DNA from: an uncultured Flavobacteriales bacterium
Lineage (GTDB): Bacteria; Bacteroidota; Bacteroidia; Flavobacteriales_G; Salibacteraceae
Assembly: GCA_913020435.1 (NCBI GenBank)
Contig: CAJVZZ010000009.1
Location: 50,856-114,855 of the forward strand
Length of the DNA: 64,000 nt
Reading direction: 5' to 3'
Part shown: positions 1 to 1,513 of the stretch, in pieces
Numbering within the stretch: position 1 is the first letter of the stretch
Layout of the letters: each line of letters begins with the position of its first letter
Program-made: the position numbers and the translations under genes
The notes under the pieces: generated by a model
Databases searched by the model: none
Told to the model about the DNA's origin: nothing
What the model saw: only the letters and a program-made list of their open reading frames with translations

Positions 1-306
1 ATCAATGAGAATAAATTCCCACTAGATACGGTTCTTGTTGTAAGTAAGGGGTATGGAACAGTTAAAAATGAGCAGGTAAAAACAAGTACTTTACGTCGGT
101 CTTTTGAAACAGTACCAGCTAATGGAACACAACAAGTTGAGCCAATAATTGAGGAGGTATTCGGCCTTACGAATGAATACTGGTTGAGTTTTTATGCGAA
201 GGAAAAGCTATTTGATAAGAAGTTTGTTTTTACTGCAGGCTCAATTAGTAAACAGTTTTTGGTGAATATTCCTATTCTTAATGAACAAGGAATTTTGCAC
301 CCATAG
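1..306 (+). CDS. C-terminal part of an unidentified protein (5' end outside window)
   Basis: Frame 1 is open from the first base to TAG at 304-306, giving about 101 residues; the ORF track omits it because its start lies upstream. The fragment is hydrophilic, with no membrane segment, Cys motif or recognisable catalytic signature. It contains a Glu/Phe/Tyr-rich stretch and ends in ILHP. I do not recognise the family. Its stop codon overlaps the GTG start of the next gene by one base (TAGTG), so it is probably co-transcribed and translationally coupled with the GNAT and QueC-like genes, and may share their pathway. Real coding is likely given the open frame and the coupling. Confidence 0.7.
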   Translation: MNENKFPLDTVLVVSKGYGTVKNEQVKTSTLRRSFETVPANGTQQVEPIIEEVFGLTNEYWLSFYAKEKLFDKKFVFTAGSISKQFLVNIPILNEQGILHP

Positions 307-854
307 TGATCTCTAATAAACAATCCAACCAAATACTTATGCTAGCTAATCAGGCATTTGGAAAAAATTATTTAACGATATCATCCCTCAATAGTTATGA
401 TAGTTTAGAAAATTCGCAGGTTATTGTAGTCGAGGAAAACGAGGAGGTTATAGGTTTCTCAATCGTCATGACTTTCAAACAAGAAGAGCTTTTCAAACAT
501 TTATATATTGATTTAGAAATACCGGCCGAAGAGTCTTGTGTCGGGTATCGAAAAATGACCATTGTAAAACCTGAAAGCAGAGGAAAGGGAATCGGTTCGG
601 AATTAGTTAAAAAGGGAGAAGTTTTTATTCAAACAAAAAGTAAAATTGTTTATTCTTCCATTTGGTGTAATGGAACAGAGGAAAAAATGACCAACCTATT
701 GGATAAAAACGGCTATCAATTCTTAGAAAAAAGAATTAATTATTGGAAAGATGATAGTCTAGAAAAACAATACAACTGTGCTATTTGTGATGCTCCTCCC
801 TGCATGTGTGCTGCCCTGATTTATAAAAAGAACCTTACTATGTTTGTACAATGA
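306..854 (+). CDS. GNAT-family N-acetyltransferase with cysteine-rich C-terminal tail
   Basis: 182 residues. The core resembles Gcn5-related acetyltransferases: a central strand region followed by the acetyl-CoA pyrophosphate loop RGKGIG (about residues 92-97). Unusual for the fold is a C-terminal cluster C158-x2-C161-x4-C166-x-C168, which could bind zinc or an Fe-S cluster. The GTG start at 306 overlaps the previous stop by one base, and the stop overlaps the next ATG by 4 bp, so the gene sits in a tight three-gene operon. The substrate is unknown. The QueC-like neighbour suggests small-molecule or nucleobase chemistry, but that is inference. GNAT assignment is fairly firm; function is open. 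Confidence 0.75.
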   Translation: MISNKQSNQILMLANQAFGKNYLTISSLNSYDSLENSQVIVVEENEEVIGFSIVMTFKQEELFKHLYIDLEIPAEESCVGYRKMTIVKPESRGKGIGSELVKKGEVFIQTKSKIVYSSIWCNGTEEKMTNLLDKNGYQFLEKRINYWKDDSLEKQYNCAICDAPPCMCAALIYKKNLTMFVQ

Positions 855-1513
855 GACTAGATTATTTCAAGGAAAAATTTGATGCTATTGTGCCACTGTC
901 TGGAGGTATTGATAGCGCGGCTGCACTTTACAAAGTTTTATCTGAGAATCCGAATAAAAAATATTTGGTTTTTAGAATTGACATGGTACATGGTACCAGC
1001 GGAAACAGAACAACTCGTGAAGCAATGGCAACCGAGAAAATATTGAATTGGCTAGAAGAAAATGGACACAATAATTTTGGGTTTCGTGAATTACGTATTG
1101 ATTATTCATCATTAGGGTTGACTCCACCTGTTTGGGATAGTGAAGTTGTGAATTTTGCTGCAAGCCTCGTTATACAATCAAAACCAGAGATTTCTGAATT
1201 TGTAGAAGGAGCAATTCAAGATGATTATTTAGAAAAAGGGTTTGCCGAGAGATTAAATAAAATTGAAAAGATCTTGCGCTTGCATACTGGAAAATCAGCC
1301 GAAGAACTAGAAATCTATTTTCCTTTAAAAGATAAACCTAAAGTTGAGGTAATGCGAATGCTACCAGAAGAATTATTAAACTTAACGTGGAGCTGCAGGT
1401 ACCCAAAGATTGTTGGTCCTTGGCAATTTGGTCGTTGTCATGAATGCCCTCAATGCGGTGTAATTGATAAAATCCTTAATAGTAACCCGAATGAGTTTCC
1501 TCAGGGCTTTTGA
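851..1513 (+). CDS. QueC-like PP-loop ATP pyrophosphatase
   Basis: 220 residues. The N-terminus has the PP-loop LSGGIDS (about residues 16-22) that binds ATP in N-type pyrophosphatases. The C-terminus has a TWSC motif followed by C196-x2-C199-x2-C202, which with C182 matches the four-cysteine zinc site of QueC (7-cyano-7-deazaguanine synthase). QueC converts 7-carboxy-7-deazaguanine to preQ0 using ATP and ammonia. No queD, queE or queF lies in view, so this may be a paralogue with another substrate; QueC-like proteins also occur in the Qat defence system, but its other members are not visible here. The ATG overlaps the GNAT stop by 4 bp. Family assignment is good; the exact reaction is uncertain. 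Confidence 0.72.
   Translation: MRLDYFKEKFDAIVPLSGGIDSAAALYKVLSENPNKKYLVFRIDMVHGTSGNRTTREAMATEKILNWLEENGHNNFGFRELRIDYSSLGLTPPVWDSEVVNFAASLVIQSKPEISEFVEGAIQDDYLEKGFAERLNKIEKILRLHTGKSAEELEIYFPLKDKPKVEVMRMLPEELLNLTWSCRYPKIVGPWQFGRCHECPQCGVIDKILNSNPNEFPQGF

Follow-up and report, generated by a model that had tools for sequence, protein, structure and literature searches.

A rare gene pair encoding a Cys-knuckle GNAT and a divergent QueC-superfamily ATPase in Bacteroidota

A GNAT-family acyltransferase and a divergent QueC-superfamily PP-loop ATPase constitute a real, rare and undescribed two-gene unit in the window, the whole 64,000 nt stretch of DNA analysed here (G000:C9:50856-114855), which belongs to a 2.95 Mb genome in 50 contigs that is 98% complete. 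Its two genes are coupled, inherited together and found together across genomes, and a cofactor site is preserved in each protein: an acyl-CoA loop in the GNAT, and a PP-loop together with a four-Cys site in the QueC-like protein. The conserved unit is this pair and not the trio that it makes up with the preceding ORF1. As a best, and tentative, explanation, the two enzymes could work on a common or linked substrate, with the GNAT N-acylating an amine and the QueC-like protein using ATP to amidate or ligate a carboxylate. The features of the locus, in window coordinates, are:

1..306, + strand: 3′ part of ORF1, whose encoded protein is 133 aa once extended; its start lies 96 bp left of the window
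306..854, + strand: GNAT-family acyltransferase, 182 aa, GTG start (Pfam Acetyltransf_7, 2.9e-08, over cut-off)
774..812, + strand: Cys knuckle of the GNAT, about residues 157-169, C-x2-C-x4-C-x-C (18 homologues and AlphaFold2 model; probable Zn site)
851..1513, + strand: divergent QueC-superfamily PP-loop ATPase, 220 aa (Pfam QueC, 4.4e-07, over cut-off)
899..916, + strand: SGGIDS pyrophosphate-binding loop of the QueC-like protein, residues 17-22, invariant except for one I/V position
1394..1459, + strand: putative four-Cys Zn site of the QueC-like protein, WSCRYP...RCHxCxxC (C182, C196, C199, C202), all four Cys invariant, in the phage relatives as well

Gene arrangement and distribution of the pair

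Direct reading of the sequence bears out the three overlapping genes of the initial annotation. In particular, the ORF1 stop codon (TAG, 304-306) and the GNAT start codon (GTG, 306-308) share 1 bp, and the GNAT stop codon (TGA, 852-854) and the QueC-like start codon (ATG, 851-853) share 4 bp (ATGA). Extending the contig leftward by 96 bases, a check proposed at the outset, recovers the whole of ORF1 as a 133 aa protein with an S9-type peptidase gene upstream; searches of Pfam, NCBIfam, PADLOC and PHROG returned no family match for it, in keeping with the initial annotation, which had put no name to this protein. Three further genomes of the window's genus (G001-G003) have the same order, ORF1-GNAT-QueC-like; in G009 and G011, from the same family, the pair occurs without ORF1 next to it. 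The earlier notion of a three-gene system was therefore given up, because ORF1 adjoins the pair only within the genus and is absent beside it elsewhere; the conservation of gene order on which that notion was to be judged extends to other genomes for the pair, but not beyond the genus for ORF1. ORF1 is a neighbour outside the conserved unit, probably cotranscribed with the pair.

The surroundings of the pair are housekeeping genes (ATP synthase, S9 peptidase, LptF/G-type permease, mnmE and lepA), and its G+C content is 35% versus 37% for the window, a difference within 1 s.d. that gives no ground for a recent foreign origin. Both genes are under purifying selection with respect to their two nearest relatives (dN/dS of ~0.05-0.15 for the QueC-like gene and 0.13-0.23 for the GNAT gene). 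Moreover, the SGGxDS loop, the four Cys and many other residues are invariant in QueC-like homologues down to ~50% identity, as are the four Cys and many other residues in GNAT homologues down to ~25% identity; together with the purifying selection, this invariance makes the pair's features more than chance.

The relatives that carry the pair are recorded as Flavobacteriales/Crocinitomicaceae. The GNAT and QueC-like genes are adjacent in other Crocinitomicaceae genera, within differing surroundings, and in Aureispira (for example, L025); the pair in G009 and G011 is located elsewhere than in the window's genus, beside mnmE in G009, and the GNAT of G008 is cut by a contig edge. An in-frame TAG interrupts the QueC-like gene of G009 (L012:1483-2160), which marks either a pseudogene or an assembly error. 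Overall, the pair is conserved over several genera and two families. The translational coupling between the GNAT and the QueC-like PP-loop ATPase, part of the original proposal, is also supported. The QueC-like gene is present in 7 of 100 relatives, in 5 of 248 Saprospiraceae and in a single one of 396 genomes drawn over the phylum, namely the window's own. The wide genome scan used exact peptide patterns, by which distant bacterial relatives were possibly missed.

Wherever the QueC-like gene occurs, the Cys-knuckle GNAT is also present (16 of 16 genomes). Among the sampled relatives, the GNAT is found in 7/7 carriers versus 7/93 non-carriers of the QueC-like gene (Fisher 2e-7), and among Saprospiraceae in 5/5 carriers versus 1/243 non-carriers (Fisher 8e-10), p-values that are too small because the genomes are related. 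In two Saprospiraceae (G490 and G491), the two genes lie on different contigs, which argues for a functional tie beyond hitch-hiking within an operon; the GNAT family of the 7 non-carrier relatives can, in turn, act alone. The pair has no conserved neighbour of the transporter, carrier-protein or other pathway type. Further, the QueC-like protein has no plasmid match, and neither the GNAT nor the close QueC-like relatives have a viral-contig match, leaving only distant phage relatives; a plasmid- or phage-borne cassette was rejected on these grounds. The literature searched held no description of a QueC-like protein with an acetyltransferase or of GNAT-decarboxylase fusions, and the initial annotation's view of an undescribed system stands for the pair.

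The two proteins and their proposed chemistry

The GNAT has the family's fold in its AlphaFold2 model (mean pLDDT 93) and its acyl-CoA-binding R/QxxGxG/A loop, here R-G-K-G-I-G. GNAT structures are its best fold matches, including the protein N-terminal acetyltransferases RimI and Naa60, and RimI is also its best NCBIfam match, far below the cut-off. The C-x2-C-x4-C-x-C motif noticed earlier is present, but it is not an appended tail: the model places C158-x2-C161-x4-C166-x-C168 after helix 148-154 and before the last strand (169-176), in the beta6-beta7 region, and C158, C161, P165, C166 and C168 are invariant across 18 homologues. Since acceptor binding in many GNATs falls to the beta6-beta7 loop (PMC7790372), the modelled knuckle likely shapes the acceptor site; judging from its four Cys only, it probably binds zinc. 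Sequence change is far faster in the GNAT than in the neighbouring proteins: amino acid identity to the G001 counterpart is 69%, versus 93% for the QueC-like protein and 96% for the SDR. The fastest-changing part of the GNAT is its N-terminal half.

The QueC-like protein passes the gathering score of Pfam QueC (PF06508; 30.1 versus 22 bits) and falls far below the NCBIfam QueC equivalog cut-off (17.5 versus 150.3 bits). Its AlphaFold2 model (pLDDT 87, pTM 0.87) has QueC, Cap9 (9nto), NcsA, TtuA and TilS among its best fold matches. The initial annotation had credited the protein with QueC's pyrophosphate loop and zinc site; SGGIDS does occupy residues 17-22 (SGG[IV]DS across the family alignment) and the four Cys are invariant, but their spacing is C-x13-C-x2-C-x2-C and not the C(x)8CxxCxxC of the QueC zinc motif.

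The rest of the QueC signature, which has been defined by mutagenesis (PMC13329287), is replaced. In an alignment to B. subtilis QueC, YxQxHxxE, VPxRN and YPDC give way to NGxSxxRxxxE, PPxWDSExVNF and GFxxR; of YxQxHxxE, the Glu alone may persist, and R99, the loss of which abolishes QueC activity (PMC13329287), is among the residues gone. At the Tyr and Asp positions of YPDC, the family has a Phe and a residue that varies among E, D, G and K; the corresponding Tyr/Asp pair holds 7-deazaguanine in Cap9 (PMC13279940), and a Phe in place of the Tyr is partly tolerated in QueC (Y131F; PMC13329287). Because residues that QueC needs for preQ0 synthesis are missing, the QueC-like protein is, as judged by its sequence, not a canonical QueC; because the QueC motifs are replaced and the Cap9 Tyr/Asp pair is not kept, it is placed in a separate clade. 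An ordinary queuosine operon, which the initial annotation had raised as the contrary case, is ruled out by the neighbourhoods of the pair.

The known PP-loop ATPases of the QueC kind all adenylate a carbonyl or carboxylate. Such adenylation is described for QueC, LarE and GMP synthetase (PMC13329287). In the proposed two-enzyme chemistry, the QueC-like enzyme would use ATP to adenylate a carboxylate, and displacement of AMP by a nitrogen nucleophile would then yield an amide (or nitrile) or a conjugate joined through an amide bond. The GNAT would use acyl-CoA to N-acylate an amine, either on that molecule or on its partner, with the Cys knuckle shaping its acceptor site, and the amine would be amino-acid-derived, at least in Aureispira.

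The source of the amine is suggested by a gene fusion, the usual state of the GNAT in Aureispira. Four Aureispira loci (L019, L021, L024 and L026) encode, directly upstream of the QueC-like gene, a 590-603 aa protein in which the Cys-motif GNAT is followed by a fold-III PLP decarboxylase (positions 7888-9693 in L021). The fusion matches Pfam Orn_Arg_deC_N at 1e-30 to 1e-32 and scores 238.9 bits against TIGR01048 lysA, below the 297.9 cut-off; solved relatives of its decarboxylase domain are diaminopimelate decarboxylases and BtrK. This fusion of the GNAT to a LysA/BtrK-type decarboxylase suggests that the amine derives from an amino acid, in a specialised pathway for a small molecule and not one that modifies nucleic acids; the nearest plasmid relatives of the decarboxylase (39% identity), which lie near PKS/NRPS genes in Rhizobium lusitanum and Eleftheria terrae, also point to such an amine. 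On a Sphingomonas paeninsulae plasmid (L047:7474-9212), among signalling genes, a SET-domain methyltransferase gene overlaps a gene for a decarboxylase of the type fused in Aureispira.

The decarboxylase is not a constant part of the unit, since the fused type is absent from Saprospiraceae and from Aureispira Cli_1, and the sole fold-III decarboxylase gene found in the window's genome is lysA, beside lysC; a decarboxylase partner in that genome was accordingly rejected. This inconstancy counts against the two-enzyme reading, as do the lack of conserved pathway genes beside the pair, the occurrence of the GNAT alone and the presence of N-terminal acetyltransferases among its best fold matches.

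Alternative roles and the queuosine background

The alternative that survives best, though unlikely, is a protein conjugation of the Cap9/QatC type, in which the QueC-like enzyme would attach 7-carboxy-7-deazaguanine (CDG), or a different carboxylated group, to an amine of a protein while the GNAT competes for, caps or trims that amine. Cap9 as a top fold match, the resemblance of the GNAT to N-terminal acetyltransferases and the probable synthesis of CDG by the QueD and QueE present in these genomes all agree with it. The phage relatives lend it further weight. In particular, the nearest relatives outside Bacteroidota in the collections searched are phage proteins (tblastn E down to 3e-19), and the QueC-like protein matches phrog_1550 at 2.8e-22 over residues 11-202, compared to 9e-4 for PDB QueC, a rough comparison as the databases differ in size. 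Such phage genes are found in capsid/tail modules (L027:5010-6445, L028:6022-6573, L087-L093 and L097), and in PIS 136 and L097 a RimK-like ATP-grasp gene adjoins them. Their location within virion modules, sometimes followed by a RimK-like ATP-grasp, makes protein modification plausible there and hints at modification of virion proteins. No Cys-knuckle GNAT was found on the contigs carrying phrog_1550 genes, and a tree splits the bacterial from the phage QueC-like group, with long branches and an arbitrary root.

Against protein conjugation, neither partner has the N-terminal Met-Gly of the CD-NTase and QatB targets of Cap9 and QatC (PMC13279940), the QueC-like protein does not conserve the YPDC Tyr and Asp with which Cap9 holds 7-deazaguanine, and neither CD-NTase, QatA, QatB or QatD nor a defence island was seen. 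By inspection, the neighbours in 13 loci include no CD-NTase (with its N-terminal Met-Gly) and no Cap10; the 220 aa protein also lacks QatA, QatB and QatD neighbours. PADLOC returned a weak QueC match (0.0013) and no QatC match. A defence role, a setting that the initial annotation had mentioned for QueC-like proteins, is not supported here, and Qat, CBASS and dpd-type systems were rejected: the PADLOC match is weak, the surroundings are housekeeping, and there is no partner with an N-terminal glycine.

A pair that modifies tRNA or ribosomal proteins, combining an NcsA/TtuA/TilS-like thiolase or amidase with a RimI-like GNAT, is decidedly improbable. The fold matches to NcsA, TtuA and TilS and the RimI match, however far below cut-off, speak for it, but a distribution of 1/396 genomes is too sporadic for a translation gene, no RNA-binding domain was seen in the 220 aa protein, and the Aureispira decarboxylase fusion does not fit.

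Queuosine genes were counted in 17 genomes, the window's and 16 related ones. QueD (PF01242) has matches in all 17 and QueE in 15, while canonical QueC is found in none (0/17) by the same model that finds it in control genomes. In the window genome, QueD passes its cut-off (112 versus 89 bits) and the best QueE match falls below an E. coli-type cut-off (134.5 versus 200 bits). The earlier remark that no queuosine partners are visible holds for the surroundings of the pair; elsewhere, the genome does encode QueD and QueE, though no canonical QueC. CDG may thus be available in these genomes, as far as gene content indicates.

This background raises the prospect that the QueC-like protein stands in for a lost QueC and makes preQ0 from CDG, for which the partial tolerance of Phe at the YPDC Tyr would also allow. 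Such a role is very unlikely: apart from a Glu that may remain, YxQxHxxE, VPxRN and YPDC are gone, together with the essential R99; the gene pairs with a GNAT and not with queD or queE; and G004-G006 have QueD and QueE with neither QueC nor the QueC-like gene. The pathway there is independent of the QueC-like protein, which is therefore not simply the missing QueC. A role of the pair in using CDG is itself weakened because canonical QueC is missing from these genomes while QueD, and in most of them QueE, is present. It is a long shot that, in the QueD/QueE lineages that lack QueC, the pair builds a new small-molecule or protein conjugate from CDG or some related carboxylate; if true, QueC-superfamily chemistry would have a third branch, next to preQ0 synthesis and the deazaguanylation of CBASS and Qat.

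It is also very unlikely that the two genes merely travel together with no shared function: the GNAT does stand alone in 7 sampled genomes, including G005 (L063:698-2043), where it lies at the equivalent place, directly upstream of the counterpart of the window's SDR gene with no QueC-like gene between, but the genes co-occur though unlinked in two Saprospiraceae, their adjacency recurs in different surroundings, and the G005 GNAT nests inside the partnered group of the GNAT tree (moderate support), which suggests loss of the QueC-like gene there.

Relation to known systems

QueC-fold enzymes have lately been shown to act beyond queuosine synthesis, in protein deazaguanylation during defence. 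The bacterial and phage clade described here has its own active-site signature and is tied to a GNAT and, once, to an amino acid decarboxylase. The preferred two-enzyme reading makes the pair a tractable entry to new amide-forming chemistry, as its two genes are small and coexpressible. The finding further highlights Bacteroidota genomes in which QueD and QueE persist without QueC and the fate of CDG is in question.

The microcin C protein MccE is a fusion of a GNAT with a fold-III PLP decarboxylase. It presumably has the same two domains in one chain as the Aureispira protein, with what we take to be a reversed domain order and, in Aureispira, a LysA/BtrK-like decarboxylase. The QueC-like protein shares with canonical QueC the SGGxDS PP-loop, a four-Cys site near the C-terminus and the overall fold, but it differs in lacking the C-x8 spacing and the YxQxHxxE, VPxRN and YPDC motifs, and in not pairing with queD/queE. 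With Cap9, one of its top fold matches (9nto), and QatC, it has in common a repurposed QueC fold outside a queuosine operon; in contrast, Cap9 keeps the YxDC and RN motifs, and QatC is ~400 aa with N- and C-terminal extensions compared to 220 aa here. The closest likeness outside Bacteroidota is to phrog_1550 proteins, such as Mycobacterium phage Muddy gp16 and the Saccharomonospora phage PIS 136 ExsB, which have 26-32% identity and share the W-x-C-R-x-P motif, the four Cys, an E-x2-A-x3-I-L helix and P/K residues, but whose genes lie within virion structural (capsid/tail) modules.
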